Source: a virus. From it: a DNA stretch of 51,760 nucleotides. Every line of letters begins with the position of its first letter. Position 1 is the stretch's first letter. This document shows positions 17,139 through 51,760 of the stretch, piece by piece. The stretch spans positions 1-51,760 of IMG/VR virus record IMGVR_UViG_3300024319_000019; one strand, 5' to 3'. The notes under the pieces are model-generated. The model was not told the DNA's origin, did no database searches, and saw nothing but the letters and a program-made list of their open reading frames with translations. A program made the translations under genes and the position numbers.

Positions 17139-17719
17139 AACACGTTTGCCTTTGTTCCAAAATGTGCAAGTTTAATACTTGCGTCTATCCATACTTCATA
17201 ACCATGATGCATTGCTTGATTACAAAAGTATATATCCTCTCCGCTGAAAGTGTCTAGTCGTTTATTGTATTCGTGATCAAACCACGGCTTTGGCAAGTTA
17301 TTATACACATCGGTATTAACCAACATACATCCCATACCAACTGCCCATACCTTGTGCAATCCAAAACTAGCATCTAGTCTATTGTCTGCATTTTCATAAT
17401 CAGTAAATGCTACAGTACGATACGGAGCATATCGTGTACTGTATTGTGCTGCAACAATATCTTTTTGATGTTCATATAGTTTATCAAATACGTTTGCTGG
17501 AAAATGCATATCGCTATCAAGCCACAGTATATGCGTTGCATTATTTTCTAATGCTTCTTTTACTAGTGCAGTTCGACTTTCAATAATCACGCTGCCGCAA
17601 ACAATATGCAGATCAAAGTCAACATTTTGCTTTGTTAATCTATTTGTTAAGTTACAAAGACTGCGTGTAAATCCTATATGAACTTCGTCTCGTGATGGAA
17701 CACAAATACTTAGTTTCAT
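17135..17719 (-). CDS. GT-A-fold glycosyltransferase
   Basis: This 194-residue protein looks like a compact family-2-type glycosyltransferase. The opening strand is KLSICVPSRDEVH, the nucleotide-binding strand leads to HILWLDSDMHFP with a DxD motif at Asp68-Asp70, and a downstream SGEDIYFC supplies a likely catalytic acid (residues about 160-163), followed by a G-Y/H-x-V strand and LAHFG. Asp-x-Asp coordinates the metal and the nucleotide-sugar phosphate. The acceptor is unknown: virion protein, DNA base or host glycan are all possible. It overlaps the following repeat gene by four bases and starts next to the stop of the previous gene. Confidence 0.82.
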   Translation of the reverse strand: MKLSICVPSRDEVHIGFTRSLCNLTNRLTKQNVDFDLHIVCGSVIIESRTALVKEALENNATHILWLDSDMHFPANVFDKLYEHQKDIVAAQYSTRYAPYRTVAFTDYENADNRLDASFGLHKVWAVGMGCMLVNTDVYNNLPKPWFDHEYNKRLDTFSGEDIYFCNQAMHHGYEVWIDASIKLAHFGTKANVL

Positions 17720-24300: not shown

Positions 24301-27300
24301 TCGTAACCAGTACCGCCTGTTTTTATATCAACATCGGTAACTTGTCCTGCTGTAACAGTAACGTCTGCTGTTGCACCAGATCCTGATCCTGAGTTGTTTG
24401 TAAATGCTACGTCTTTATATACTAGTGTTCCGTTAGTAGGTGTATATCCTGAGCCGCTTGTAATAGCTCCGTTGTCGACTCCAGTTAACACGCCATATCT
24501 TACTTCTGTCACTGCGCCTTGAGCATTACCATCTGCTGATGTAACAATAGTACGTGCAGTACCTGGTACTGATTTTATACTTTCGTTGTCGCCTTCACTT
24601 GCAATAGTAAACGTAGTTGCTGTTGGTATACTTAATACTAATGTATTTTCGTTGTATGTTGTATCATCTGGTACTAGTACCTGTACATTGTTGTCGATTT
24701 GTAAGTTATGAGCTCCGCTTGTTGTGATTGTAGCAATATTACTTGTTCTTGCAACATTAGTGATAACTGCACTAGTAAATGTGTAATCAACATCTGGATC
24801 AAGTATTAAGAATTGACTGCTGTTTGAACTACGTAAGAAGAAGTTATCAACAATCTCTGATACTGCACCTTTTGCAGTTGGGCGAACTCCTGAATCAACA
24901 CCGTTAACAAACAAGTTTGGCGCTGTTCCACTTACGTCCCATGGGTCGCCAGTACTATCATCAGTATCGTCCCATGCTCCCGGAACACTAGCAACAAGTA
25001 TGTTACCACTTGATGGATATGCACCTTTTGCGTATGCAACAGCACCTTCAATACCAGGCTGTGTAATAGTGTCGCCGTTGGCTACATTTAAAATATTTCC
25101 ACTTAGAGTAAGTTCAACTTGCTCGTAGTTCTCAGTAGCAATATCACCAGCTTTCAAGTCAGTTGGTGGAATATCATCAACTTGTTCAAGTCGTGATAGA
25201 TAACCTTGTGTGTTAGTGTTGGTAAACTGACGTGTAGCCGGAATAAGGTCGCCGTTCAACTGACCGTTGGTGTTAAGCTGAACAATAGCGCCTGGTACGG
25301 CTGCTGTACTAACTGATTTATCAACAAAGCCGCCAAGTCTATTATTAATAAACGAACGTACTGCTAACTGTGTAACCATTCGAGCATCACTTGGACCGCC
25401 AAGTTCGTCGTCACCTAAGTTAACACTAGTTGAAATCTCTTCAATAGCAACATCACTAAGACTTAGTCTCAACGCATCAAGTTCGTCCACCTGCACTTTG
25501 TTTCTAAAGGTAATGTTACCTGTTCTGTTGAACGCTGTAATAAAGTCACCAACTTTAAAGTCACCAAGTTCGTTTGTACCTGATGAGTAAACACGTCCCG
25601 GAAGTTCTTCAAACTGTTCAAACTCTGTTCTTGTATTACCACCGTTTTGCGGTAATGCGTTGTAGTCAACGCCTGAACCGGCATATTCCCAAGTGTGTGA
25701 AGACGAGTTAACAATACTTGGTCTGTGGAACCATAGTTGATTTTCTGGAAGATTTGAAGTGTTAGTTAAACTACTACTACCATCTGTAGCAGTAAGGGTA
25801 AACGTTGCTGTACCTAAACCTAGCTTTGTAGCTACTTCGTTAACACCGATAGTTGAATTTGGACTACTTGCATGATCTTGTCCGATAATACTTGTTTCGT
25901 CAAACTGAACTCTAAGAACACTCGAACCAACTGCAACTTGTTCAATACTTACAACTAGTCTACGTTCTCTTGGTTCCCATTTTGTAACAATAGCACTGTT
26001 ATTATTCACGCCTGTTGTACCTGAAATAGCACGACCAGGAACAAACTCATAACTTTCTGCTCCAGATTCTAATATAAGTGTCTGGTATGTTGTATGAGAG
26101 TTTAATATTTCTTCAACAAAGAATTCAATAACATTTGAGAAAAACTTGTGAGTATTTGCACCTGCTGCAATAATATTAACATCAAAGTCTCCTGATTCAT
26201 CAAACGTTAGACCAAACTCGTCGTCGTTGACAATTTTAATATAGTAAGTTTGTTCTGCATCAAGTCCTTTGATCGGAGCGTTGCCATCTGGATCATATAT
26301 AACTTTTTGACCATTTGAAAAGCCGTGATCAACAATCGTAATAATATCAACTTCAGCATTAACTGCTGTAGCAGCATCAAAAGTAGTTTCAGTAGGAGTA
26401 GTTTTAAAGTCGTTTGTAACGTCACCTTCACTGCTTACTTCTGTTGGATTTGGTAAATCATTTGGATCATTTATGATCGTATTTACAATATCAAAACGTG
26501 AACTTGCAAAATCTTGTACGGCTGAACTAACACTAGTAATATAACTTAATGCTTCAACTTTTGCTTGCTCAATAGCAGCAATAGTCTGTAGTTCTTGGCC
26601 ACTAATACTAATACGAGAAGAGTCTTGTAAGTTAGCAGTGTAATATGCAAGACCAGCACTACGTGAATACCTGTTACCAGTATCCCAAGTATCTTGTGCC
26701 ACTGCTTCAACAATAAGTTGTGTGTCTCTATTACACTTAGCAGAATCATATGTAAATCCATACCAAATATTTGCTTGTATTTGTTCGTTTATAAACTGTG
26801 TAACATTTTGTGCAATGTTAATCTGAGTAACAGTTCCTAAGCCGTTGAAGTTATCTTGTAATGTTGCTGTAGTCCATGTTATGTCTGGTTCAATTCTTGC
26901 TGGCGGTGTGGCGCCTGCACTATTTAGATAATCAATAATTTCATCAATTCTATCTGCGGCATAGTCGGCAGCAGCTTCACTACCAGCTGTTCCTGATACA
27001 TCTTGTGTTTCAGTGTTACCTGCAGTTACAGTAACTGATTGTTCTTGTATAACTTGTTGTATTGCTTCTTTTAATCTACCATAGGCTGCAACAGTTTCTT
27101 CTTGTTGTCCTGTGCCGTACTGTGCTACTCCGTCTATAAAGTATGCTAGTGATGCAACCAATGTTTGTAAGTTGCCGCCGTATGTTAAATCATAAGAAAG
27201 TGCGTCAATAATAAGTCCTGTGTCTCTTTCACACTTGGCTTCATTATAAACAAATCCTGATTCAAACGGTGGGTTTGCAGCAGCAATCTCTGCGTTTAAC

Positions 27301-29261: not shown

Positions 29262-29337
29262 GTGCAACTGCCTCCTATTTAGGTATGGGTCAGATCCGAA
29301 GATGCCCGATGTAAAACAATAAAAATTGCTACTCAGT

Positions 29338-29427: not shown

Positions 29428-32400
29428 TTAAAATGCGCCACCGTCTATGGTATCAGTCCAAACTGGTGTTGCATCAGCATCACTTGTTACAGTAAGTATT
29501 TGGAAACTGTTACTTGCGTCACTTGTTCCGGCTGCGTCAGTTACTTGAACATCAGTAGCTGCATTACCGTAAAGTATGCCGTCTGTTGTAAACGTACTTA
29601 CACCTGTACCACCGTGTGCAACTGCTAAATCATTAGTTAAACTTACTGTTCCAGTTACATGGAAGTTGTGATTTACAGTAAGTGTTCCTGTAGCATCACC
29701 AATGCTAATAGTTGTTGCTGCTCCACCAAAGTTGATAGTTGTAGCAGTATCATTTAACAAGTTAAACGTTGCTTGATTTGTTGTTAATGCATCGTTGTTG
29801 ATTGCTAAGTCTGTTGTAAAGGTTGATATATCTTCACTTAAACGTAGTTTTTCAACACCTGCTGTGCCACCAATCATTGTACTAAAGACCATATCAAAGT
29901 CTTCTTGTAGTCCAGTAATATCTTGTGCTATAACATCAATCTGACCCGATGTTTCAAAGTTATCATTTGCTGTTTCAAGTTCAAACTTAACACCTGTGCC
30001 GCTTCCTGCTACTGGAGTACCACTTATACTGTGATGTGCAAATGTCATTGGATATACAATATCATCTGCTGCACTATCAGGTGCATTGGTTATAAGTTTT
30101 AGTCCATCTTGTGCAAGTACTGTATTTGCTCTAATATCAACTGTGTCTGTAGCAAGTGATGTAAGTTGTAGTACACCATTGTTATTACCGCCAATGTATT
30201 TTTGTACATGTAGTTCTTCACCTATGCCAACACCGCCAGCAACTACAACTGCTCCACTTTGATAAGTTTGACTTGGAGTTGTATTGTTGAATGTTGATAT
30301 TACACTACTGTCAACATTAAAGTATGAGTTACCAATAATAGCACGTTGACTTCCGTTTGTAAAGAACTCAAGCTCGTCATTGTTAGCACCAGGTGATGTT
30401 TCAGGACGTATAAATGTATTTTGATCAACATCTTTTACGCCGCCTAATGAACCCCATGCAATACCGTCATAACCTTCAAATACTAGCGTATCTGTGTTGA
30501 ATCTAACCTGACCAGTTGCAAACGCTGGTCGTTGTGCTGATGTACCAACTGGTATTTGCAAACTTGTAACACTATCAATAACAACTATCTCATTGTTGAT
30601 AGTAAGTGTGCCTGTTGTTGCACCTATGTTAATAGTTGTAGCATCGCCAAATGCATCTATGCGTGTAGCATTAGTATTGAATACATTAAAGGTACCAGTT
30701 TCGTCTGTAATAATATTAGTACCATTGATTTGTATATCTCTATCTGCAATAATATCTCTATCAGCAGTAATATCAACACCAGCGTGTATATTACGTTGTG
30801 TACTAAGACCACCTGTGATTTGTACTGCACCAGTAACATTGTCAGTAGCATCATCGTTGTTTAGTATAATAATATTTGGAGTTGTTCCAAACTCAACTAC
30901 TTCTGATCCGTCAACTGTATCTATTATAATATAGTCGCTAACATTTTCGTGTATTCTTAGTACGTTAGTGTTATTGTCTGGCAAGTCAATATCAGTTGCA
31001 CCATTGATATCAATAGTATCAACTGCTCTATCACTGCCTAATACAATACTTCCGTCTGCGGTAAAATCAACACCGACAGTTAAACTTTTAGCAATACCAA
31101 CACCACCGTCAATAACAACCGAACCTGTAGTTGTGCTAGTCGACTCTGTTGTATTTTCAACAAGTAATCCTGGACGGATGCCAAATGTAATAAGTTCTTC
31201 GTCTGTACGTGTGTTAATACTAATAAAGTCCAACGAACCTTCTGTACTAATACTGTATGCTTGTAAACTTTCATCAGGAATGTTTAAACTAACATCACCT
31301 GTGAATACAATATCACCGTTAACTGTTAAGCTACCTTGCACTAACAAGTCTGGATTAACTGTAAATGTACCGTCTGCTGCACCCATAATAATCGATGTTG
31401 CATCGCCAAATGCGTTAATAGTTGTAGCACTTGTGTTTAACAAGTTGAACGCACCAGATGTATCTGTACTAATCACATCACCGTTAACATCAAAGTCGCC
31501 GTTGAGTGTAATATCGCCTTCAACAGTGCCGCCTGTTAGTTTGTTTAAGTATCTGTTTTCAACATATGTACTAACAGCTTTTTGTGTAGGCGCTGTATTA
31601 AAGTCTTGTGTACCAATACTTGAAACTAAGTTTGCATTGTCACTAACTTCTTTAAGTTCTACACCAACCGGAATACCATCTCTAATAAACGGACCAACAC
31701 TGGTTAATCCTTTTAAGTCAATTTCGTTAGCATTAAGTGTGATACTACCTGTAAGTGCGTTAACACCAAAGAAGTTACCAACTCTAAAGTTACCGATTTG
31801 GTCAACTGTACCACCAGCAAATACTTTACCGTTGCTTGTTTCGATAATCTCTTGTTCAGGTATTGCTGTACCACCAAAGAACGGAAGTGCGTTATAAGTT
31901 ACGCCAGCACCTACATATTCAAACGCATGACCTGAAGTTGAAATAGTACTAACATTGTACAAGTATGCTTGCTGTGTTGTTTCAACACTAACGATACCTG
32001 GGAACACTGTGATTTCTGCACTACCACCGTATGTTGCATTTAGATCGTTAATAGCAGTTTCTACAATATCTTCAGTTGCTCCAACGATGATATTTCTTTC
32101 AGTGTTGTAAACACTACTACCAAGTTCGTGATTGTGTCCAACTTCGTGCCAGCCTGTAGTGTATCCTTGTATAATCGATAAAGCAAGTCTATCAACTAAA
32201 AGTTCAGCACGTTGTCCAATTGCTGCATCTGCATCTGGAATAGTTAAAATCTGTGTTTTTGCATTTCCAAAACTTTTAGCAACAACTTCGTTATTTGCAA
32301 CTTGACGCATTATGTCGCCTAGCTTATAATAACTATATGCACTAACTAATGTTTGGTCAACATTGCCTACTTTTGCTGCACCTAATATAGTGCCACTGTA

Positions 32401-35400
32401 GTATGCTTCGGCTGCTCTGCGAGATTGCTTGTTACCACCGTACATCAAATCGTATAGTACAGCATCAATAACATAGCCGGTATCTCTTTCACAAACTTCA
32501 ATACCGTATTCAAATCCTAGTATATTATCTTGGATATATGTGATAACACCGTTTTGTATAATCAACTTGTTTGCAAGTAATGCATTAGCTGCTGATCTTG
32601 TTGTTTGAGGCAACCAACTAAAGTCTGGATTAACTTCTCCTGGAACACCAACTAGTGTATTATTTTCAACAGCACTTTTGATAATACCTATTAATCCAAC
32701 TGCTGTTGAACTTTCTATACTTGTGCCATATGCTCCGCCTAATACTTGCGATTCTGTGTTTCCAGTAGTTGGTGTTACACCAATACCTTCGATACATTTT
32801 AAAGCAACGTCTTGTAAATGTGTATATGCTGCAACTGTGTTTGCTCTTTGACTTTCAGGAATATATGCTACTGCTCCTAAGAAGTATGCATTAGTAGCAA
32901 TGATTGTTTGTATATTGCCTGTGTATAGTAAATCGTATGCTACAGCATCAATAATAAGACCTGTGTCATTTCTACAACTTGCTTCGTTATAAGAAAATGC
33001 ATTGTAGTTATCTTCAAGTTCTGTTATTGTATCAGCAACAATAGTTGCTTTTGCTGCTTCTAAACTTGCAATAGCAGTTTGTGCGCCGGCAGTTGCCCAT
33101 GATGTATCTGGATAAGATACAGCTGGAAGATTATCAACACCGTCAGTGATAACGTTTTGGAATACTGTTAATAGTTCTGTTGCTCTAGCTACTTCAGTTG
33201 CAGTTGCAGCGCCAGCAGTTGTATCTTGTACTACGCCTGTTTGTTCTGGATCATCATATAATGTATCGAGTAATATACTACCAAGTAGTGTATCTACCCA
33301 TCCTAATGCTGCTGCTGTTTCAGGCTGTTGTCCTACAACTTGACTTACATAGCCAACATAATATGCTTGTGCTGCTTGATATGTTGCAGCATTGCCGCCA
33401 TATAAAATATCGTATGTAAGAGCATCAACAATATAACCTGTATCTCTTTCACACTTTGCACTATTGAATGTAAAACTTCTTGTAAATGTTTTATTGATAT
33501 AATCAATAACATCTGCTTTGTAAAAATCTACTTTCGTAGTACTATTCAAGTCTGCAAAATCTGTTTGTAATTCTGCTGCTGTCCAAGTAATGTCTGTAAG
33601 AATATCTGCTGGAATAGAATCTATATTGTTGTTATTAACAACATCTTCTACTATTTGCAACAGGTTTTGTGCTTCGCCTGCTGTACCAGCATCAGAACCT
33701 GGATTAGATGTATCTTGTGTTACACCTGATTGTTCTGCAGTTCCGTGTGTAATATTTTGAATAACATCAGATGCTACATTTGCTAGTTCATTAAATGCTG
33801 CAACTGTAGCTGCTTGTTGTCCAGCACCAAGTTGAGAAACTGCTCCAACAAAATAACTTTCTGCTGCATTTTTAGATGCTAAGTTACCGCGATATATAAT
33901 ATCATAACAAACAGCATCAATGATATATTTGGTGTCTCTTTCACATTTTGCTGCATCAAATGTTAGTAATGGATAGTTATTAGTAACATATGCACTAGTC
34001 TCTTTTGCTAGGAAATCTCTGTTTGCTTGTAGCTGAGTTACTGCTAGTGGATAGTTAGCATTTAGGCCGCTATCTGGGAATGTTAGCGTATCTGCTGATG
34101 TATCTGTACTTACAACACCGTTGTTAATAATGTCTAATATTTCATTAAATCCTGCAAGTACACGACTTCTAAATGTTCCTGATAGCTGTATTTCATCAGT
34201 ATTAATAGTATCTCTTAGATATTCAATAGACTTAACTGTTTGTAATAGTTGTGAACCAACAGCTACCGCAGCATTTGCTCTTTGATATGCAAGTCCTGAT
34301 GTTACTTGATTGAAGTTAGTTCCTATTGCTGCATCATAACACACAGCTTCTATCATAATACCTACATCTCTAGCACACTTTGCTTCGTCGTAAGTAAAAC
34401 TTTGGAAGTTGTTTGCAATCCAAATAATCACAGTTTCTTTTACATCATCTTTGTTGCCTTTGATAGTACTGTATGCTTGTTGTAACACACTAGTTGACCA
34501 GCTAACAGATGGTAGTTGCACAGATGGTAGTCCGGCAATATTTCCTGCTGTAATAACATCTTCGATAATCTGTACTAGACCTGATACATCATCTGCTTCT
34601 GTTGAACTTGCCGGAGTTCCGCTAGTATCTTGTACTAAAACGTTGCCTGCACTATTTTCAACAACTGCTTCAATAACAATATCACTAACTACTTGACCTA
34701 GTCTATTGTATGCTGCTGCTGTAGCTGCTACTTGTCCCGCACCTAGTTGTGCAACAGCACCAACAAAATACGATTGTGCTGCTTGTTGAGTTGCGCTATT
34801 GCCGCCGTATAAGATATCGTGACATAATGCATCAACAATATATCCAACATCTCTTCTACATTTAACTGCATCGTAACTTAATGCAGGATAGTTAACAGTG
34901 ATCCACTGTATTATTTCTTCTTGTATGTATGCTTTGTTAGCAATCAACTGATCTTTTGCTTCAACAGCATTTGTTGAAGGCAATAAGCCAGGAGTTGGAA
35001 ATACTAATGTGTCTGCTGCATCGTCTGTACTGATGTTTCCGTTTTCAAGAATATCAATAATCTCGTCCATTGCTGCTTCAGCTTTTGGTTCTGCTGTGTC
35101 ACTTAGTCCAAGTTTTACTATTTCTTTTTTAAGTTCTCTTAGTGCTCCAGACGTTTGTATCAACTGATCGTCTTGTAAATCTGCACTACTAGCTCTCTGA
35201 TATGCAAGTCCTGCTGTTACACTATTATAGTTTGTTCCAAGTGCAACATCAAGTGCAACGGCATCCATTATTAGGCCAATATCTCTTTCACACTTTTCTT
35301 GATTGTATGTAAAGTCTTTGTAGTTATTTGTAATAAATGTTGCTGCTTCTTTTTGTAAAAACGCACGGTTAGCAACCATTTGATCTTTTGCATTAATCTG

Positions 35401-38400
35401 GCCGGTAGTTGCACCAGTTGGGTTTGTCCATGTTAGTGTATCTGCAAAGCCAATACCATTTGTAACAATGTCTACTACTTCGTCAAACGCTGCGCCAACT
35501 GCTGTTTGTGTTGTTGCATCACTAGCTGTTGCTGTAGTTGATTGTCCTTTTGCAAAGTTAATCGCTGCTAGTGTTTCAGTTAACTGATCAGATAACACTG
35601 CTCCGGCATTTACTCTTAAATATGCTAGTCCGTTGGTTACACTATTATAGTTTGTTCCAAGTAGTGCATCGTATCCAGCACCTGAGATAATCAGTCCTGT
35701 ATCTCTTTCACACTTGGCTTGGTCGTATACAAAGTTGTTATCATTAATATATGCAATAACTTCGCCTGTTAAAAAGGCTTTGTTTGCAACAAACTGCGAG
35801 TGCGCATTTATAAGTGCATCAGCTGCTGGACCTGGTTCAGGATATTCTCTACCTTCACTAGGTAGTTGGTTAAACTCAATAATATCAAAAATATTATCAA
35901 ATAAGTCTGAAACTTTGTCCTGGAATGCTGCTTCGCCACTTGCTGCTAATACAGCCAAACGTTTTGCTTCTCTTAGTGCAATAATAGTTGCAGGTTTTTG
36001 TTCGCCGTTTAAGTAGGCAACATTTGCACGATTGTAAGATAATCCTGCTGTAATACTATTTTGATTTGTTCCAAGCTGGGCATCTCTATATACTGCATCA
36101 ACCATATAACCAACATCACGTTTACACTTTTCTTCGTTGTAAGTAAGTGTTGGGTTATTGATTAAGTTATAATCTATTGTATCTTCAAGGATAGTTGCAA
36201 TAACCGAAAGTAGTTTATTTGCTGCATTTACTTGTCCGGCTGGTTCTTCTTCAATATTTGGATAAGATTTAGTAGGCAACCCAGTAATAGTTTGTGCATT
36301 AATAACGTTTTCAACTATTTGCACTAATCCATCTAGTAATGTAGCTTCAATTTGTGTAGCATCGCCGCTTGTAAAGTCTTGTGTTTCTGCATTACCTGAT
36401 GTTTTTGCAACACTAAGTCCTCTAATAACACGTTGTACAATAAATCTTACTCTTGCAAATGCGTCTTCAAATGCTGTTAGATTTGTAGTAGTAAATTTAC
36501 TCCACGTTACACTTTTAAAGAACCAAGTTGTTTCTTGTACTGTTGCATTGTTACCACCATATAAAATATCATATGATAAAGCATCAACAAAGTTTTCAAC
36601 ATATGCTTCCCATTCAGATGCAGTATAAGTTAGTGTACTGTCAAGTGTGTCTAAGTAAGCAATAAACTCAGCAACAATAAAATCCTTGTTTGCTTGTAAA
36701 TGATCTTTTGAATCTATTCCATTTTGCGTAACTCCAACACTTGCTGGATATGCAGGTACAATGCCTGTACTATCGCCATCGTCAACTACGTTAATAATAA
36801 TATCAAATGCTTCATTTACTCTAGTTACTGAAGTAGGATCTGTGTTAACTTCTGTATATCCTAAAACTAATGATCTTAGATAAGCAAAACTAGAAACATA
36901 AAGATTTTTAAATCTTGTTCTTGATCTAAACTCTTTTGCTTGTCTAACTATAACATGGTCGCCACCTGTGGCAATGTATGAAGAAAGTGCAGTTAAGAAC
37001 ACTGTCATATCTTCGTCGTACCATGCTTGATTATAACTTAGTTCGGTAAACTGATCGTTGATATAAGCAGTTAGTTCAGCAATAATAAAATCTCTATTTA
37101 CTAAAATATTATCTTTTGCTTCAATGATTTCGCTATCTATGCTACTTAGATCGTTAAATGTGTCGCCGAGTTGATCTCCAACGAATGGAATGCCAGTACT
37201 ATCGCCTGCTGCAAGTGTACTAGTAACAATATTAAATCGTTGATCCAGTTCTTCTTTCATTGCAAGATTTGAAGTTAACGCTTTCATTTCGTCACGTGTT
37301 GCTTCAAGTGCATATATAGTAGGAGCAAGCTGATCTAAAAGAACTTTAGTAGAGGTAGCTCGTAAATAACTTTGCGCTGCTGTAGTTGTTTGATAGTATG
37401 TGCCCATAACAATATCACTAGTTAGTGCATCAATGATACGTCTAACATCACGTTCGCAAGTTTCTTGATTGTATACAAACGGCTGTGTTGTAATGTCGTT
37501 TGAAGTAATATAATAAAATATATCATCACCGTCAAACTTAATAACAGAACCAGTTTGCGGCTTGTCTCTTAAACTTGAAATAGCAATACTAGCATTTGTT
37601 CTTAGATTCACTGTTCCGGTGGCTTGTATTGTTGCGCCACCTCCTGTAAATGTAATATCCGGTACACTTCGATATCCGCTACCATTATCAGTAATACTGA
37701 CTGCTGCAAGTTCACCTGTAGTTAAATCTACCTGAGCAGTAGCTTGGGCAACTGTTCCGCCTGCGCCTTCTGGTGCGCTAAACTGTATTGTTGGTACACT
37801 AGTGTATCCTGTTCCTGCAAATGAAAGTGTTACACTACCTACTGTAGAATAATAGTTTTGATCAGCTGTTGCTGTGGTATATGCTACTGGATAATACCCA
37901 TCTGCTACAACACCGTTAGTACCAAAGTCACTAACACTGTTTGAAATACTTAAATAACCACCTTTGGTAGTCATAAATCCTGTACTACAGAAGACCGAGA
38001 AGCAACTAACAATCTGTGTATAACCAAAGTTGGTAACATGGAAACCAATACCACCTTGTGAAATCTGTGTAAATGCGTCAGCAACAAAACTAAACACTAG
38101 TGATGCAGGATCGTAGTCGTCTCCGTCAACTAGTAGTCCGCCACCGCCACCTTCTGGATTAATTTGTTTTTCTACAGGAACGTTTGGATTGTCTGCTAAT
38201 AATATTGGTTTTGCACCCGGTGTAATACCTTCAATCTGTACAGTTTCAAATGGTACAAACTCAGTTCCGTCGTTCAACCACGGACCATTCATGTTAGTAC
38301 AGTTTTGTACATATGGCGAAGTAGTAACTAGGGCGCCTGGGCGTATTCGAGTACACCAGCCTGGAGCACGTAATCCTCTAAATGTTATTTGATATAAGTA

Positions 38401-38829
38401 ACAAGCATTGCCCATAAGAAAGAAATCCGAAGTAGGATTCTTTGGAAACACTCTAGTATTTCTAAGTTCGCCTTGTCCTGAGACAGTAACAAAGTCACGT
38501 AATGTGATCGGATTGTTTTCATAATAATCGCCTGGTGCAACAATAATAGTTGAGCCAATGGGTGCAACTTCTGATGCACGTTTTATACTAGCAAATGCGC
38601 CATTTTTATCTGCACTTCTACCATCGTTTGTATCACTACCATCTTCGGTAACGTAGTATACATTAGTAACTTTTGGACCAGTAACATCACCTGTGGTGAT
38701 CATATTGGCATTTACACGAAACTCCTTGCCATCGTCAAGGTTCATTTCCATATCACCGTCGGATGTAAGAATAAAGGTCTTATCCCCTATTTTTCTGCTA
38801 TGTATCGACTGTCTTTTAATATAACTCAT
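29428..38829 (-). CDS. Giant fibre/baseplate structural protein with KCxRD repeats
   Basis: This 3,133-residue protein shares a beta-helix entry with the neighbouring giant: VYYVTEDGSDTNDGRSADK, then YTQIVSCFSVF...TTKGGYLSISNS, close to YAQIVSCFEIF...SGGYCSITNS there. Between about residues 450 and 2,120 lie twelve KCxRD units (two degenerate), the last at FEYGIEVCERDTGYVIDAV. A shared junction (EYVGAGVTYNALPFFGG) and shaft repeats of the type FNLLNTSATTI-FGDAT follow. The end is WTDTIDGGAF, without the S74 chaperone present in the neighbour. A tail-fibre or baseplate-fibre role is inferred; the KCxRD units have no assigned function. Translation starts three bases after the preceding stop, so it is co-transcribed with three small structural genes. 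Confidence 0.8.
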   Translation of the reverse strand: MSYIKRQSIHSRKIGDKTFILTSDGDMEMNLDDGKEFRVNANMITTGDVTGPKVTNVYYVTEDGSDTNDGRSADKNGAFASIKRASEVAPIGSTIIVAPGDYYENNPITLRDFVTVSGQGELRNTRVFPKNPTSDFFLMGNACYLYQITFRGLRAPGWCTRIRPGALVTTSPYVQNCTNMNGPWLNDGTEFVPFETVQIEGITPGAKPILLADNPNVPVEKQINPEGGGGGLLVDGDDYDPASLVFSFVADAFTQISQGGIGFHVTNFGYTQIVSCFSVFCSTGFMTTKGGYLSISNSVSDFGTNGVVADGYYPVAYTTATADQNYYSTVGSVTLSFAGTGYTSVPTIQFSAPEGAGGTVAQATAQVDLTTGELAAVSITDNGSGYRSVPDITFTGGGATIQATGTVNLRTNASIAISSLRDKPQTGSVIKFDGDDIFYYITSNDITTQPFVYNQETCERDVRRIIDALTSDIVMGTYYQTTTAAQSYLRATSTKVLLDQLAPTIYALEATRDEMKALTSNLAMKEELDQRFNIVTSTLAAGDSTGIPFVGDQLGDTFNDLSSIDSEIIEAKDNILVNRDFIIAELTAYINDQFTELSYNQAWYDEDMTVFLTALSSYIATGGDHVIVRQAKEFRSRTRFKNLYVSSFAYLRSLVLGYTEVNTDPTSVTRVNEAFDIIINVVDDGDSTGIVPAYPASVGVTQNGIDSKDHLQANKDFIVAEFIAYLDTLDSTLTYTASEWEAYVENFVDALSYDILYGGNNATVQETTWFFKSVTWSKFTTTNLTAFEDAFARVRFIVQRVIRGLSVAKTSGNAETQDFTSGDATQIEATLLDGLVQIVENVINAQTITGLPTKSYPNIEEEPAGQVNAANKLLSVIATILEDTIDYNLINNPTLTYNEEKCKRDVGYMVDAVYRDAQLGTNQNSITAGLSYNRANVAYLNGEQKPATIIALREAKRLAVLAASGEAAFQDKVSDLFDNIFDIIEFNQLPSEGREYPEPGPAADALINAHSQFVANKAFLTGEVIAYINDNNFVYDQAKCERDTGLIISGAGYDALLGTNYNSVTNGLAYLRVNAGAVLSDQLTETLAAINFAKGQSTTATASDATTQTAVGAAFDEVVDIVTNGIGFADTLTWTNPTGATTGQINAKDQMVANRAFLQKEAATFITNNYKDFTYNQEKCERDIGLIMDAVALDVALGTNYNSVTAGLAYQRASSADLQDDQLIQTSGALRELKKEIVKLGLSDTAEPKAEAAMDEIIDILENGNISTDDAADTLVFPTPGLLPSTNAVEAKDQLIANKAYIQEEIIQWITVNYPALSYDAVKCRRDVGYIVDALCHDILYGGNSATQQAAQSYFVGAVAQLGAGQVAATAAAYNRLGQVVSDIVIEAVVENSAGNVLVQDTSGTPASSTEADDVSGLVQIIEDVITAGNIAGLPSVQLPSVSWSTSVLQQAYSTIKGNKDDVKETVIIWIANNFQSFTYDEAKCARDVGIMIEAVCYDAAIGTNFNQVTSGLAYQRANAAVAVGSQLLQTVKSIEYLRDTINTDEIQLSGTFRSRVLAGFNEILDIINNGVVSTDTSADTLTFPDSGLNANYPLAVTQLQANRDFLAKETSAYVTNNYPLLTFDAAKCERDTKYIIDAVCYDIIYRGNLASKNAAESYFVGAVSQLGAGQQAATVAAFNELANVASDVIQNITHGTAEQSGVTQDTSNPGSDAGTAGEAQNLLQIVEDVVNNNNIDSIPADILTDITWTAAELQTDFADLNSTTKVDFYKADVIDYINKTFTRSFTFNSAKCERDTGYIVDALTYDILYGGNAATYQAAQAYYVGYVSQVVGQQPETAAALGWVDTLLGSILLDTLYDDPEQTGVVQDTTAGAATATEVARATELLTVFQNVITDGVDNLPAVSYPDTSWATAGAQTAIASLEAAKATIVADTITELEDNYNAFSYNEASCRNDTGLIIDAVAYDLLYTGNIQTIIATNAYFLGAVAYIPESQRANTVAAYTHLQDVALKCIEGIGVTPTTGNTESQVLGGAYGTSIESSTAVGLIGIIKSAVENNTLVGVPGEVNPDFSWLPQTTRSAANALLANKLIIQNGVITYIQDNILGFEYGIEVCERDTGYVIDAVLYDLMYGGNKQSRRAAEAYYSGTILGAAKVGNVDQTLVSAYSYYKLGDIMRQVANNEVVAKSFGNAKTQILTIPDADAAIGQRAELLVDRLALSIIQGYTTGWHEVGHNHELGSSVYNTERNIIVGATEDIVETAINDLNATYGGSAEITVFPGIVSVETTQQAYLYNVSTISTSGHAFEYVGAGVTYNALPFFGGTAIPEQEIIETSNGKVFAGGTVDQIGNFRVGNFFGVNALTGSITLNANEIDLKGLTSVGPFIRDGIPVGVELKEVSDNANLVSSIGTQDFNTAPTQKAVSTYVENRYLNKLTGGTVEGDITLNGDFDVNGDVISTDTSGAFNLLNTSATTINAFGDATSIIMGAADGTFTVNPDLLVQGSLTVNGDIVFTGDVSLNIPDESLQAYSISTEGSLDFISINTRTDEELITFGIRPGLLVENTTESTSTTTGSVVIDGGVGIAKSLTVGVDFTADGSIVLGSDRAVDTIDINGATDIDLPDNNTNVLRIHENVSDYIIIDTVDGSEVVEFGTTPNIIILNNDDATDNVTGAVQITGGLSTQRNIHAGVDITADRDIIADRDIQINGTNIITDETGTFNVFNTNATRIDAFGDATTINIGATTGTLTINNEIVVIDSVTSLQIPVGTSAQRPAFATGQVRFNTDTLVFEGYDGIAWGSLGGVKDVDQNTFIRPETSPGANNDELEFFTNGSQRAIIGNSYFNVDSSVISTFNNTTPSQTYQSGAVVVAGGVGIGEELHVQKYIGGNNNGVLQLTSLATDTVDIRANTVLAQDGLKLITNAPDSAADDIVYPMTFAHHSISGTPVAGSGTGVKFELETANDNFETSGQIDVIAQDITGLQEDFDMVFSTMIGGTAGVEKLRLSEDISTFTTDLAINNDALTTNQATFNLLNDTATTINFGGAATTISIGDATGTLTVNHNFHVTGTVSLTNDLAVAHGGTGVSTFTTDGILYGNAATDVQVTDAAGTSDASNSFQILTVTSDADATPVWTDTIDGGAF
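32450..37480 (-). repeat. Array of twelve KCxRD modules
   Basis: The units are spaced about 420-490 bp apart, with signatures near 37460, 37020, 36590, 36110, 35700, 35285, 34860, 34375, 33945, 33455, 32980 and 32495. The core is (F/L)-(T/S)-(Y/F)-(N/D)-x-x-KC-x-RD-x-G-x-(I/M)-(I/V)-(D/E)-A, followed about ten residues later by (Y/L)GxN and a Tyr-rich helix. The second and third units have lost KC-RD. Spacers carry QDTSG, IIxxVI and 'WxxxxLQxxxxxL' elements. Confidence 0.85.
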
Positions 38830-46272: not shown

Positions 46273-46280
46273 TATTTATA
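46273..46280 (-). promoter_or_regulatory. Exact late promoter at the gp20 stop
   Basis: The minus strand reads TATAAATA, with the TAA stop of gp20 inside it. It ends four bases before the ATG of the next gene and can drive that gene and the MptE-like gene. Confidence 0.65.
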
Positions 46281-48030
46281 TCGTTTGTGCCGGATTTGGT
46301 TCTGCACCACCACCGCCAAGTTCGTCTCCGGTATTTGTTTCAGGTGCAGTATCAGTGCCGCCATCTATTCCGCCTAAATCGTCACCTAACTCGTCTTCAA
46401 GTCCTCCAAAGTCGCCTGCAAGATCAGCACCGCTTAGTCCAGCACCTCTCATTTCGCCTGCCATATCGTCTGTAACAAGATCAGTTAGGTTTTCGTCATT
46501 TTCTTCACGCCATAAACGTTCGTTCTCTGCTATCTCTTCTGTACTCAATCCTAAGAATCTTTCAAGTGCAAATCTATTTGATATATATGGAACTGCTGCC
46601 ATGCTTGTAAATGTACTAATACGGTTGTTATCAAGTTCTGCTTGTCTATATGCTGCAAAGTTTTGTGGTGGAGTTAGTCTTAAATCAAACATTGCATAAT
46701 CAATGTTTGCACCTTTGCTTTGTAAATACAGTTTAAACTCACTGTTAAAATCTTCAGCTACCATATCCTGCAAACGTTCGCAGTATTTGTTAAATCTTAA
46801 CTCTTGTATGTATGCTGTGCCAACACGGCCATCGTTGTATTGACTTGCCCCATCGTCTGCACCTGTGGGTAAGTAACTGCTAGGAATACGCAATCCGCGA
46901 ACCAGTTTGTTAGTAAAGTACCTAAGGTCATCAATCTCTCCTAAGTTAGTACCGCCGGGTAGTGTTTCAACTTTTGAACCACGTCCTTCAGCAGTTTGTG
47001 GGAAGAAGTAATCTTCGTTGATTGACAGAGGGTTATATGAACTGTCTATGACATTTGTGCCACCACCTGTCTTGGATGGGATACGTCTTTGGTGTATTTC
47101 CGTCTTTACACGCTCCACAAACTGCATAGCAAGGTGTGATGGCATGTTGCCCACATCAACGTAGAATACTCTGCGCTCTGGCGCACGTTGTACTCGATAG
47201 ATAATAATAGCATCTTCAAGTAATTCTTTTTGTTTGTATACTTTAAATATACTTTCTAATAAACTGTTACCAAAAGGATAGTTTTGATCCAACCCTTCAC
47301 TTAAACTCAAATGTAAAACATGTTGTGCATCAATGTATGTTTCGTCGTGTTCTTGAGCAAATCTACTAGTATTGCCACTAGGTGTGTGATTATTTCCTAC
47401 ACCTGTTCCTCGTTGAACTTGCTGATAGCCGTTAGTGCCGCCTGGACCATAACTATTCTGTGTGTTCAACGGTGTTGCTTGTAATGCGCCAAATGCAAAG
47501 TTTAAGTTTTTCACAACATACTGTTCGGGCTTCTTACCTTCGCTTTCGTTGACAATAACTTTTGTAATCTGGCCAGGATCAACATGAAATAGTTTCTGTG
47601 TTTCTGGATCTCTAATAAAAAACTGATCACCATATTTAAATGCATTACGAATAGTTCTAAACATACGTGTTTCAAACTTGTTTAGTTTGCACCACTGTTG
47701 TAAGTACTGCCCGATAACCTGTACTTCACTATTAGTCGGTGCGCCTTTGAAATCAAGTTGAAAGTGTGTGTTGTTTTGTTTATTCTTTTGTGTACAAAAC
47801 TCAGCCAAGATATCAAGTGCAGCATTAACTTCGCTGTCACTATCCATAGTGTTGTATTGATTGTAACGTTCGATACGATTAGGAGAGCCAACATACACGT
47901 CAGGCAAGTGTGATGAATAGTTGGCCGCTGCTGGGCCTATTCCGTTAGATCCTTTTAAACTAAAGGGACTGTACCCTCCGTTTGTATTATCACTTGTAGG
48001 AACTGGAGTAAAATGTTTTTTCCAACTCAT
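46276..48030 (-). CDS. 20: Portal protein (T4 gp20-like)
   Basis: This protein makes the dodecameric portal at the head vertex, where DNA enters and the neck attaches. At 584 residues it is close to T4 gp20 (524). Recognisable segments include EVNAALDILAEFCTQ near residue 66, IYRVQRAPERRVFYVDVGN near residue 277, VKTEIHQRRIPSKTG, the SYNPLSINEDYFFP block and GRGSKVETLPGGTNLG. The C-terminus is acidic and Gly-rich. Its ATG overlaps the stop of the tape-measure gene (ATGA), so the two are translationally coupled, an unusual link between head and tail genes. Confidence 0.96.
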   Translation of the reverse strand: MSWKKHFTPVPTSDNTNGGYSPFSLKGSNGIGPAAANYSSHLPDVYVGSPNRIERYNQYNTMDSDSEVNAALDILAEFCTQKNKQNNTHFQLDFKGAPTNSEVQVIGQYLQQWCKLNKFETRMFRTIRNAFKYGDQFFIRDPETQKLFHVDPGQITKVIVNESEGKKPEQYVVKNLNFAFGALQATPLNTQNSYGPGGTNGYQQVQRGTGVGNNHTPSGNTSRFAQEHDETYIDAQHVLHLSLSEGLDQNYPFGNSLLESIFKVYKQKELLEDAIIIYRVQRAPERRVFYVDVGNMPSHLAMQFVERVKTEIHQRRIPSKTGGGTNVIDSSYNPLSINEDYFFPQTAEGRGSKVETLPGGTNLGEIDDLRYFTNKLVRGLRIPSSYLPTGADDGASQYNDGRVGTAYIQELRFNKYCERLQDMVAEDFNSEFKLYLQSKGANIDYAMFDLRLTPPQNFAAYRQAELDNNRISTFTSMAAVPYISNRFALERFLGLSTEEIAENERLWREENDENLTDLVTDDMAGEMRGAGLSGADLAGDFGGLEDELGDDLGGIDGGTDTAPETNTGDELGGGGAEPNPAQTI

Positions 48031-50192
48031 ATTGTACCTTTCAGCATATTGCCCTGTAGACTCTTTGTAGCTCTAAATGTTTTTTGTTGCGCACTTGCTG
48101 AGGATGATTCTATAGTTACAAGTGTTTGTAACTGTTGTATCATTGTATCAAACTTACTTGTCATTAAATTACTCATTTGTTCTGCAACATTATTATTACT
48201 TATCGTATTTTGTCCATTTGCACCATTGTTTTGAACACTACTATCAAGACTTTTAATACCTTTCATAAGATTTTGCATAACACCCATACTGGTGTTAGCA
48301 CTCATAACATTTGCTGGTCCACTAATAAACTCAGGTCCAGCTTCGCCTACCATTCCAAATTCATTAGCACCAATCTCACCGCCTTCGGCAAAGCCTCCAC
48401 GGTAACTTGATCCCTCGGATTTGTATCTTTCTAGTTTAGCAAGGGTTGAATCTTGTACTGCTCTTAATCCATCAATTGAGTTTACTATTGTATCACTTAA
48501 ATTGGTTTCAGCTTCTGCAACTCTGGCTCCTGCGGCTTCGGCTGCTTCTCGTGCTGCTCGAACTGGTGGATCTAGCGCATTAAGCCCTTGTTCAGTTAGT
48601 GTTGCTAACTCTGCTACAGAGGTATCTAAAGCTGCGTTTGCTGCTGCTACTTCTGCTCGTGCTGCTTCTACATCGTCTTGTGTAGTTGTTGCGGTGCCTT
48701 CAATATTAGCATCAGTTGTTGCACCTGCACCTTCAACTGTTGCACCAAGAGCCTCTGCATTTGCATTTGCCGCAGCAGTACCTTCTTGTATAAAGCCATC
48801 TGTTGGCCCTAGAGCGTTTCTAAATACTTCTTTGTTATCCATTGATTCGGCTGCATTGAATATGTTGTTGATGGCGCCGCCAAGTTCACTAGCAATAGTT
48901 TCTGCACTAGGCATAACTTCTGATATTTTTTCTAATGCAGCAACAGCAACATTTTCAATGTGAGGAATAGTAGTTTCCATTACTGTTGTTGTTATTTCAC
49001 GTAAGTTTTCTTGTATAGCAATCGTACTGTCATATATACCAGTGGTTTGTTCCATCTGACGAGCTTGCTCAGCTAGTATTTGAGTATTCAGTGTTTCTCT
49101 AGCTTGTTCTGCTGTCATAGTGCCGTCACCAACACTATCAATTGCATTTTTATAGTTGTATCCAGCAGCACTTGCATCTGCAAATGCGCCCGAGACGTTA
49201 GAAAGCCCGCCAAGTATTGCAGTTTGTCTAAACTGTTCTGTGTCTTGATAATCCATTGCAGCACCGGTAGCTGCTTCTAGACTGTTTTGGAAACTGCTAA
49301 TATCACCAGCGTTAAACTGTTGAGCCGCAGCATACAGGTCGTCAGCGCCGTTGCCCATTGCAAGTAATGCATTTCTTGTGCTTTCAGTAGTAGGTGCGCC
49401 TCTGAGTGCAACATCTACAAATGCATCAGCTGCATCTTTTCCTAGTGTGTTTTGTAGTTCAACTAACTTAGTAGTAAATGCAGTTTGCTCTTCGGCAGAT
49501 TTTGTTGACAAAAATGCATTTACATCACCTTGGCGTCTGCGTTCTTTCATTTCGTCAGCTAGTTGATCACGCTGTTTACCTGTGAGTTTTGATAGACCAT
49601 CAAGTTCTACCATTAATGCTTTAGCACTTTGAGCTTGCGATTCTACACTTGCTCTATCTTTTCTACTATTGGCATCACTAATTTCACCATACAATGCAAG
49701 ATTATTGTTTATATCAGTTGTTGTATATCCTAACGCACGAAGTTTAGTACCAAGTTCTGCACTATCAAGAACAGTAGTCGATAATGCTTTAAATCGAGAC
49801 ATAGCTAAATCAGTTGTACCACCAAATGCTCTCAATGCTTCAGAGTTTGATTTTATAAAGCCTGTCATTTCTTCAACACTCAAGCCAAGTTCAGCAGCAG
49901 ATACTTTTACATCTTTTATTTCTTTTCCAAATGTAGCACCTAAATTAGTAAGTTGCTGATATTCAATAAGGCTTGCGTCGGCAAACTTTGACAATCCATC
50001 AATTACGCCGCCGAGCTGTTTTCCAAACAATCCAGTATTGGCTGCAATAGCACCACTATAAGCTGATAGATTTTGTTGCCCAGTCAGCAGGGCACCACCT
50101 AAACCAACAGCAGCCTTAGTTGCACCACCTACTGCACCAGTAAAGGTGCCTAATAGCTTGCCAATTGCTGGGCCTGTGACTTCTTCTGCCAA
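48027..50192 (-). CDS. Tape measure protein (tail length determinant)
   Basis: This 721-residue protein determines tail length and is later ejected from the tube. It is rich in Ala/Gly with long helical stretches. A hydrophobic Ala/Gly-rich N-terminal segment (residues 8-45) may be membrane-active. The C-terminal FAEGGEIG...FGMVGEAGPEFISGP is a typical tape-measure motif. A heptad-like Ala-rich coiled coil lies near residues 470-580 (VEAARAEVAAANAALDTS). The start is a TTG nine bases after AGGAG, without an alternative ATG nearby. T4 gp29 is the functional equivalent. A late-type octamer (GGTAAATA, 50237-50244) lies upstream. Confidence 0.85.
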   Translation of the reverse strand: MAEEVTGPAIGKLLGTFTGAVGGATKAAVGLGGALLTGQQNLSAYSGAIAANTGLFGKQLGGVIDGLSKFADASLIEYQQLTNLGATFGKEIKDVKVSAAELGLSVEEMTGFIKSNSEALRAFGGTTDLAMSRFKALSTTVLDSAELGTKLRALGYTTTDINNNLALYGEISDANSRKDRASVESQAQSAKALMVELDGLSKLTGKQRDQLADEMKERRRQGDVNAFLSTKSAEEQTAFTTKLVELQNTLGKDAADAFVDVALRGAPTTESTRNALLAMGNGADDLYAAAQQFNAGDISSFQNSLEAATGAAMDYQDTEQFRQTAILGGLSNVSGAFADASAAGYNYKNAIDSVGDGTMTAEQARETLNTQILAEQARQMEQTTGIYDSTIAIQENLREITTTVMETTIPHIENVAVAALEKISEVMPSAETIASELGGAINNIFNAAESMDNKEVFRNALGPTDGFIQEGTAAANANAEALGATVEGAGATTDANIEGTATTTQDDVEAARAEVAAANAALDTSVAELATLTEQGLNALDPPVRAAREAAEAAGARVAEAETNLSDTIVNSIDGLRAVQDSTLAKLERYKSEGSSYRGGFAEGGEIGANEFGMVGEAGPEFISGPANVMSANTSMGVMQNLMKGIKSLDSSVQNNGANGQNTISNNNVAEQMSNLMTSKFDTMIQQLQTLVTIESSSASAQQKTFRATKSLQGNMLKGTI

Positions 50193-50258: not shown

Positions 50259-51098
50259 ATGGAAAAAACACAAAGTCCGCTAAAAAAATATCGAAGACAG
50301 CCTAAGTTATATTTGAATATTCCTAGCAATGGAAAATGGTATAATGAAAAAATATTAGCCGAGAACACCTATACCAATCTCGCAGTGTTTAGTATGACAG
50401 CCAGTGATGAAATATTATTTAAAACCCCCGATGCACTTATCAACGGAGATGCAACTGCAAAAAACATTAGTAGCTGTATTCCAGCTATTATAGATCCTTG
50501 GGCTATTAAAACTTTAGATCTTGATGCAATACTTATAGCAATAAGAATGTCTTCATATGGCGATACTATGACTGTTTCATCTAAATGTAAAAAATGCGGT
50601 GCTGATAATCAATACGAAGTTGAACTACAAAAATATTTAGATTACTTTTCAACAAGAGAGTTTGAAGATAAGTTGCATTATGAAAACTTTGTTATACATA
50701 TTGAGCCACTAAGCTACAAGGCATGGACTGATATACAAAAACAACAAACTGCATATCAACGTGCATTAAATCTAAATATTAGCAAGATCAATGAAGAAAA
50801 AGAAAAAGAAAAGTTTATACAAGAAGTTATTGATAAAATAAACATTTTAGTTGCTCAAGCAATACTTGATCAAGTTTCTGCTGTCGAAGTAGATGGAGAA
50901 GTTGAAACTAATAGAGAAGAAATAAACGATTTCCTTGGCGAGGCCGAAGTAGGGTTGTTTCACGAACTTAAAAAGTTGATTGAAAAAAATACCAACGAAT
51001 GGCGTATTCCTCCTGAATCAATAAAATGCAACGAATGCGACCATGAAGATGATGTTAGAATATCATTGGATACATCGGATTTTTTCGTACAAGGCTAA
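50259..51098 (+). CDS. 26: Baseplate hub / tail assembly protein (T4 gp26-like)
   Basis: This 279-residue protein belongs to the T4 gp26 baseplate family. The opening LKKYRRQPKLYLNIPSNGKWY, the block FKTPDALINGDA, and SSCIPAIIDPWAIKTLDLDAILIAIR are typical. Two CxxC pairs, Cys110/113 (CKKCGADNQ) and Cys257/260 (CNECDHED), should bind one zinc. It is longer than T4 gp26 (208). The AGGAAC ribosome site lies before the ATG. The last codons contain a slippery heptamer, so a fraction of ribosomes may produce a longer fusion. Divergence from the tape-measure gene fits a chaperone or hub role. Confidence 0.85.
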   Translation: MEKTQSPLKKYRRQPKLYLNIPSNGKWYNEKILAENTYTNLAVFSMTASDEILFKTPDALINGDATAKNISSCIPAIIDPWAIKTLDLDAILIAIRMSSYGDTMTVSSKCKKCGADNQYEVELQKYLDYFSTREFEDKLHYENFVIHIEPLSYKAWTDIQKQQTAYQRALNLNISKINEEKEKEKFIQEVIDKINILVAQAILDQVSAVEVDGEVETNREEINDFLGEAEVGLFHELKKLIEKNTNEWRIPPESIKCNECDHEDDVRISLDTSDFFVQG

Positions 51099-51133
51099 CG
51101 AGCCTAGAAGACTCTGATATACTTTCGTTAGCC
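51080..51133 (+). promoter_or_regulatory. -1 programmed ribosomal frameshift signal
   Basis: In the gp26 frame the codons GAT TTT TTC contain the heptamer T TTT TTC (51080-51086). After a 6-base spacer a perfect 9-bp stem (GGCTAACGA 51093-51101 with TCGTTAGCC 51125-51133) encloses a 23-base loop. The zero-frame TAA is inside the 5' arm. This matches the classical heptamer, 5-8-base spacer and stem-loop design for -1 slippage. Confidence 0.8.
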
Positions 51134-51319
51134 AAAGATTTTGAAAATAATATCAAACAAATAAAAGATAACGCATATCGACTTAGTTGGTACATGCGTG
51201 GCGGAATTTCAGTTGACCAAATACTTTACGATACTGACTTAGAAGATCACGATATTATTACCAGTATTATAAAAGACAATATTGAAAATACCAAAAACTC
51301 AAAGATGCCGTTGATTTAG
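51086..51319 (+). CDS. Frameshift-encoded C-terminal extension (tail assembly chaperone type)
   Basis: This frame opens after a TAG at 51056-51058 and has no ATG, GTG or TTG before conserved sequence, so independent initiation is unlikely. A -1 shift at the heptamer joins it to residue 276 of gp26, giving a product of about 353 residues. The 77-residue extension reads RTRLTSLEDSDILSLAKDF, then an AYRLSWYMRGGISVDQILYD block and ends NSKMPLI. The WYMRGG box resembles the frameshifted half of tail assembly chaperones such as lambda gpG-T. The stop is directly followed by the convergent stop of the next gene. The internal ATG in the WYMRGG box would lose half the domain. Confidence 0.75.
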   Translation, partial: RTRLTSLEDSDILSLAKDFENNIKQIKDNAYRLSWYMRGGISVDQILYDTDLEDHDIITSIIKDNIENTKNSKMPLI

Positions 51320-51760
51320 TTATTGCGGTCCTGCTTGAGCATCAGGATTTATAGGCATTCCAGGATCGCTAGAAGTTTCAGGATTAGCACCAGCTGATGG
51401 AGATGTATCCACTGTGTCATCTTCTCCATCATTTGTTACATCATCAGCATCCATAGGATTAAGATCCATTGTGCCTGCTAACAATACGTTTCTTCTACTG
51501 CTAGGTATATAAGGAACTAGCATACTTTCTTGGTTTGGTGGAAACAACAATGGGCCAAAAACCAGCTTGGCCCATTCACTCTCACTGTAGTACTCCCCTG
51601 TAACACCTTCAGTTTCAGTTGGATCAAATCCGTTTAATGCTTTAGCTAGTGCTCCAGTTCCAAATCTTCCATTAAGCATTTGATCAGCTGCATTTACAAC
51701 TCCAACTGCACTTCTTCCTGTACTGACAAAAATATCTTTGAATGTACTATCAACAATGAT
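51320..51760 (-). CDS. Unknown protein, N-terminus beyond the right edge
   Basis: This frame is open to the window edge. The visible 146 C-terminal residues begin IIVDSTFKDIFVSTGRSAVG and include GEYYSESEWAKLVFGPLLFPP, then the basic PYIPSSRRNVLLAG and a disordered acidic Pro/Ser/Asp-rich tail (DGEDDTVDTSPSAG, ending in PDAQAGPQ). An in-frame ATG at 51679 is probably internal, because the open frame continues upstream in the same style. I do not recognise the family. Its stop abuts the frameshift gene's stop in convergent orientation. A virion or tail role is likely from context only. Confidence 0.55.
   Translation of the reverse strand: MIVDSTFKDIFVSTGRSAVGVVNAADQMLNGRFGTGALAKALNGFDPTETEGVTGEYYSESEWAKLVFGPLLFPPNQESMLVPYIPSSRRNVLLAGTMDLNPMDADDVTNDGEDDTVDTSPSAGANPETSSDPGMPINPDAQAGPQ

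Follow-up and report, generated by a model that had tools for sequence, protein, structure and literature searches.

The gp26-like gene and its 3' end

The stretch of DNA analysed here (51,760 nucleotides, referred to as the window) is an IMG/VR virus record, a metagenomic contig, and carries T4-type genes for portal, major head protein, tail sheath, tail tube and head closure. At its right end lies a gp26-like open reading frame (50259–51098, + strand), which is divergent from an ORF of 721 amino acids (48027–50192, − strand) and from the gene of a T4 gp20-like portal protein (46276–48030, − strand; PF07230 Portal_T4, E 1.1e-106). The protein of 279 amino acids encoded by the gp26-like ORF, the short form, matched PF12322 (T4_baseplate; E 3.3e-11, 43.7 bits at a cut-off of 24.5) and phrog_150 (baseplate hub, 1e-13). 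Its AlphaFold2 model had a pLDDT of 88.4 and gave 59 matches at E ≤ 0.001 in BFVD, including gp26 of Aeromonas phage 25 (2.4e-5) and the "baseplate hub assembly chaperone" of ACP17 (4.3e-9). The extension encoded behind this ORF was modelled as a separate protein; it was predicted to form three helices (pLDDT 79) and had no BFVD match at E ≤ 0.001.

Elsewhere in the window, the gene for a tail sheath protein of 1098 residues (5726–9022, − strand; phrog_10581, E 1.3e-233) is adjoined by two tail tube genes (3655–4929 and 5018–5656), and two very long ORFs (3631 and 3133 residues) occupy positions 18372–29267 and 29428–38829 of the minus strand. An ORF of 194 amino acids among the tail genes (17138–17719, − strand) had a match to phrog_1574 (4.9e-25), whose function is unknown, and a weak one to a glycosyltransferase family (3.5e-7).

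The 3' end of the gp26-like zero frame reads GAT TTT TTC GTA CAA GGC TAA. It contains, all on the + strand, the slippery heptamer T TTT TTC (51080–51086) in the X XXY YYZ phase, followed by the six-nucleotide spacer GTACAA (51087–51092) and by a stem, in which the 5' arm GGCTAACGA (51093–51101) and the 3' arm TCGTTAGCC (51125–51133) form nine perfect pairs, to which RNAfold added a G-U pair as the tenth. The zero-frame stop TAA (51096–51098) is located within the 5' arm. The description of these elements in an earlier note on this DNA was thus confirmed base for base. The −1 frame, whose first codon is the CGT at 51086, stays open as far as the stop codon 51317–51319 (51086–51319, + strand; 77 codons plus stop), and its end falls one base short of the end of the next, convergent gene. 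The long form predicted from the sequence consists of residues 1–276 and the 77-codon extension, that is, 353 amino acids, so that the reading frames agree with the two forms of 279 and about 353 residues that had been proposed.

In 31 main ORFs of the window, which were picked by hand and comprise 16,275 codons, there are 41 in-phase X XXY YYZ heptamers, and only the one in the gp26-like gene is within six codons of a stop; in-phase T TTT TTY heptamers occur twice. Folding of the strand alone was moderately unusual (z −2.58, with 5 of 200 shuffles folding equally well), and an Rfam search of positions 50900–51400 gave no match at E ≤ 1. The statistics of the window stem alone are modest, and it is because of its conservation that we judged the heptamer to be beyond chance.

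Conservation of the slip site, the −1 frame and the stem

We searched for relatives using the downstream frame as the only query, which does not include the heptamer. This gave 62 loci, 59 of which reach the junction (the other three start inside the extension and were left out). All 59, which correspond to 21 distinct 75-nt junctions, carry TTTTTTC at one and the same position and in the same phase. A wider search with an alignment of eight extensions gave at least 490 relatives, of which the best 80 were kept; this set overlaps with the 59 loci, and three of its members, which begin inside the extension, were excluded. The remaining 77 of these best 80 (39 distinct sequences) all had TTTTTTC, a zero-frame stop separated from the TTT by 3, 5 or 6 sense codons, and an extension of 77 codons. 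With gp26 as the query, TTTTTTC and an open −1 frame of 75–77 codons were found in 15 of 19 loci. The four exceptions were a locus with a broken upstream frame (L014), a locus running off the contig end, and two short partial matches belonging to other proteins; the junction of L014, found as L025 in the downstream-frame search, has the heptamer intact. A tblastn search with three extensions returned only Agrobacterium phage Atu_ph07 (two records) and Sinorhizobium phage Phosso.

Both phenylalanines of the slip site are invariant columns of the family. The second of them is encoded by TTC in 40 of 40 distinct junctions, and the 341 Phe codons upstream comprise 271 TTT and 70 TTC. The residue in front of the pair is Asp, Asn, Ser or Gly, and its codon is GAT, AAT, AGT or GGT, ending in T in each of the 40 junctions. 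Amino acid constraint therefore explains a part of the slip-site conservation, and the third bases are left over. In 31 pairs, pN/pS was 0.18 for the −1 frame versus 1.22 and 2.02 for the two other frames, which points to purifying selection on the −1 frame; by this measure, it evolves as a gene.

For the stem, the analysis covered the window and its clade, 25 distinct sequences in all. Of the 225 cells that the 9-bp stem has in this set, 218 are paired (96.9%), and two-sided changes were found at four of the nine pairs. The covariation score of the stem was 0.355. Shuffled alignments gave 0.153, with none of 500 reaching the score of the stem, and sliding the stem gave no more than 0.149. As a further control, we used synonymous-codon shuffles preserving the −1-frame protein, against which the stem had p ≤ 0.05 in 23 of the 25 sequences. 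The same shuffle test gave p ≤ 0.05 in 3 of 15 distant relatives and in 3 of 10 jumbo phages. Since no consensus structure forms in the distant set, a single conserved stem across the whole family was rejected.

Single distant members do have hairpins, e.g., L194. Behind the heptamer of L188, L194, L203 and L205, which belong to the distant sister clade, there are different hairpins around a TGTC...GACA core, located farther from the slip site in some members; they are not significant as a set. In named phages, a large stem lies 6 nt behind the heptamer in Atu_ph07 (z −6.72) and Phosso (z −4.78), and strong hairpins were found in S-PM2 (z −5.48) and P-SSM2 (z −3.25). For Syn9 (z 0.92), phiM12 (−1.03), KVP40 (−0.51) and HTVC008M (0.06), folding was no better than that of shuffles. 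Judging from these sequences, the constant element is the slip site, and the stem is lineage-specific. Of the conservation in homologues that the earlier note had suggested examining, the part concerning the heptamer held (59/59 and 77/77), and the part concerning the stem held in the window's clade and did not extend to the family as a whole.

The junction in named phages and its relation to T4 gp26 and gp51

A tblastn search with gp26 found 61 phage records, from which ten jumbo records were chosen for diversity (Atu_ph07, Phosso, GAP32, 121Q, PA5oct, SCTP-2, Vibrio 2.275.O, XbC2, RaK2 and RAS14). Nine of the ten have T TTT TTC and one (RAS14) has T TTT TTT, in phase and 3 to 8 sense codons before the stop (13 in RAS14), and the −1 frame behind it is open for 70 to 80 codons. 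Eight further isolates were inspected. The gp26 gene ends with T TTT TTC in S-PM2, P-SSM2, Syn9 and KVP40 and with T TTT TTT in phiM12 and HTVC008M, each time with an open −1 frame behind it; the other two, Vi01 and CPX, did not fit the pattern. The Campylobacter phage CPX has two overlapping genes instead. In Salmonella phage Vi01 (Ackermannviridae; L228:2206–2400), a gp51-like −1 frame is present behind gp26, and no canonical in-phase heptamer was seen. Gene 26 of T4 has no in-phase heptamer in its last 25 codons.

The −1 frame has no annotated CDS in RaK2 (L091:3849–4043) and PA5oct (L087:3843–4052), and it is annotated as a separate hypothetical protein in other jumbo genomes. Published jumbo genomes thus leave this conserved frame without annotation or list it as a hypothetical protein of its own.

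In T4, PF12322 finds both gp26 and gp51, the match in gp51 covering residues 1–201: gp51 is gp26-like over the full PF12322 profile and has a C-terminal tail. The gp26 and gp51 families gave an hhalign value of 98.8%. PF12322 matched at a single place in S-PM2, RaK2 and Atu_ph07 and at one place in 13 of 15 further records, of which CPX has two genes and SCTP-2 none. From these copy counts, it follows that the sampled lineages have either the slip site and one copy, or two copies. In the contigs of six larger relatives, all of them fragments, one gp26 copy was found in five and none in one.

A profile built from six gp51 proteins was run on ten records. In P-SSM2, its positions 15–186 matched gp26 (E 6.5e-5) and 195–246 matched the −1 frame (E 6.8e-7); in S-PM2, the corresponding parts were 15–175 (E 2.6e-5) and 196–246 (E 8.7e-5). 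In phiM12, only the −1 frame was matched, by positions 200–244 (E 0.002), and in KVP40 only the gp26 part. In six of the ten records, including Syn9, HTVC008M, Atu_ph07 and RaK2, there was nothing at E ≤ 0.1. A direct hhalign comparison of the window-clade extension with the gp51 tail gave 0.1%. The chain through intermediates gave 99.3% between the window extension and the jumbo phages, a weak 25% (E 8e-4) between jumbo phages and cyanophages, and 93.8% between cyanophages and the gp51 tail; a fused profile made from marine sequences alone was placed wrongly on gp51. These comparisons weakly suggest that the window's clade is linked to gp51 indirectly, through the intermediates.

The small protein annotated as gp51 in S-PM2 is encoded by the −1 frame that follows gp26 (L217:2472–3364; in P-SSM2, L225:1465–2373). 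This accounts for the "truncated" cyanophage gp51 of the 2010 literature: cyanophage and marine vibriophage gp51 was described as short of the first ~200 residues (PMC3037559), and the word frameshift is absent from the part of that text examined.

A proposed short and long tail assembly chaperone from one gene

We propose, with a probability of about 0.88, that the gp26-like gene encodes a T4-type tail (hub) assembly chaperone as two products from one start, the longer one being made by a −1 slip. Judged from its genome, the phage very probably makes a short and a long tail-assembly helper by slipping at TTTTTTC. The −1 frameshift, which the earlier note had proposed, is supported by the heptamer in every junction-reaching locus of both searches, by the covarying stem of the clade, by the selection on the −1 frame, and by the same layout in named phages. 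Because of the homology to hub chaperones and the lambda G/GT precedent, the best reading of the two products is a pair of the lambda G/GT type, in which T4 gp26 would be the counterpart of the short form and T4 gp51 that of the long one. That ribosomes slip here, how frequently they do so, and which partners the two forms bind is what we infer.

The earlier note had taken the divergent 721-aa ORF for the tape-measure gene, and this identity is unproven: the protein had no Pfam hit over the cut-off and no PHROG at E ≤ 1, its best BLASTP E value against the neighbour in RaK2 was 0.24, and a search of ten phage records, run without a positive control, gave 0 of 10. Its position is the one taken in jumbo phages by a large structural protein next to the portal, and the neighbour in GAP32 touches a tape-measure family only at E 0.028. 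In line with this and with the name of the family, baseplate hub, the fusion could be real and yet give a two-form structural subunit of the hub and not a chaperone of the tape measure; the views on whether gp26 stays in the hub, as presented in the sections of PMC3004832 consulted, are conflicting. The same sections, however, tabulate T4 gp26 and gp51 as hub assembly chaperones, with gp51 absent from the final particle, and in S-PM2 the gene right after gp26/gp51, which overlaps the end of gp51, matches the tape-measure family phrog_9570 (E 5.5e-20), giving the lambda G-T-H order. We therefore consider the structural subunit unlikely. The chaperone role, which the earlier note had put forward with reserve, gains support from the homology to T4 gp26 and gp51, both listed as hub assembly chaperones.

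An alternative is a separate small protein, made without any fusion by ribosomes that finish gp26 and reinitiate. In its favour, an ATG is present within the first six extension codons of Atu_ph07, Phosso, 121Q and XbC2, and the depositors annotated a separate gene in Phosso, 121Q and XbC2, and in S-PM2 as gp51; in named phages with an ATG close behind the slip site, reinitiation could add to slippage or replace it. In the window's clade, by contrast, none of the 59 loci has an upstream start codon in the open −1 frame, and 52 of them lack ATG, GTG and TTG over the first 13 codons of the extension. In the window itself, the first of these start codons is the ATG at 51194, codon 37 of the extension, inside WYMRGG. 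The first 13 codons are also free of starts in RaK2, PA5oct and RAS14. Unlike a start codon, the heptamer and its choice of codons are conserved, and the combination that the earlier note had named as speaking against frameshifting, an ATG of its own in the downstream frame and no heptamer, was absent from the 59 homologues checked. Reinitiation as the general explanation is therefore quite improbable.

Every conserved site is a run of at least six T, at which the polymerase could lose one T or add two, placing a fraction of the mRNA in the long frame. Such polymerase slippage does not need a codon phase and is favoured by longer runs, whereas the X XXY YYZ phase is kept in every locus counted and a C ends the run in 77 of 77; in addition, the covarying stem six bases downstream fits a pause of the ribosome. 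Slippage during transcription is accordingly even less probable than reinitiation. That a homopolymer indel, by an error of sequencing or assembly or in a dead remnant, split two once-joined frames has in its favour the homopolymer at the junction and the metagenomic origin of the contig, but it is practically dismissed by the same junction in 39 distinct sequences and in isolate genomes, which refute an artefact, and by the purifying selection on the extension.

In the ribosomal frameshift that we favour, most ribosomes would stop at the TAA at 51096 and release the short form of 279 amino acids. Some would pause at the stem with T TTT TTC in the P and A sites and slip back by one base, so that TTT TTC would be re-paired as TTT TTT. 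Translation would then go on from CGT at 51086 and yield the long form of 353 amino acids with its helical C-terminal extension of 77 amino acids. The part shared by both forms may bind the tape measure and the extension may recruit another tail component, as in lambda gpG/gpGT.

On a larger scale, we regard it as somewhat more probable than the opposite that a −1 slip at T TTT TTY is an old and common route to the long chaperone in the T4 superfamily, that the stems were invented separately, and that gene 51 of T4 and the gene pair of the Campylobacter phage arose later by duplication and fusion. The direction of this change, with the slip site older and the separate genes later, is likewise something we infer. 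If the proposal is true, the "truncated cyanophage gp51" and the "T4 exception to the frameshift rule" would be effects of annotation and sampling, and several jumbo phages would lack the second half of their chaperone in the annotation. The slip site itself offers, at the level of sequence, an answer to how many T4-related phages that lack a complete gene 51 could produce the long chaperone, and it makes the chaperone ratio in T4-like phages directly testable.

Decoding by frameshift is, as a principle, long established for lambda. The covarying stem may be new or already known, and so may the occurrence of the signal across jumbo phages. No earlier report of the signal in jumbo phages or cyanophages was found among the literature matches listed, which is a weak negative. 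The title of Vladimirov, Gautam and Davidson (2022) proposes a mechanism other than frameshifting. A 2025 paper (PMC12846349) attributes, in the relevant passages, the polyT slip signals of TAC-N genes in T4-like phages to Vladimirov et al. 2022 and gives a GTTTTT slip signal for Vandenendeviridae/Andersonviridae. The PRFect paper states in the passage concerned, citing Vladimirov et al., that some T4-like phages have separate short and long genes (PMC10885494), and a 2016 review describes, in the part consulted, the G-T frameshift as widely conserved in long-tailed phages "except T4" (PMC5009743).

The window resembles several of these systems. With the polyT signals of PMC12846349, as they are described in its passages on TAC-N, it shares a polyT slip site close to where the short chaperone frame ends, followed by a −1 frame that stays open. 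With T4 gp26, it shares the PF12322 family of the short form; in contrast to the window, T4 makes gp26 and gp51 from two divergent genes (115802–116428, − strand, and 116479–117228, + strand). Lambda gpG/gpGT, as outlined in the part of PMC5009743 consulted, likewise uses one gene with a −1 slip near its 3' end, which gives a major short form and a minor long form with a C-terminal domain encoded in the −1 frame. Unlike lambda gpG/gpGT, the window protein belongs to the T4 gp26 family, its slip signal is a T TTT TTC heptamer with a stem, and its neighbour, with the tape-measure identity unproven, is on the other strand.
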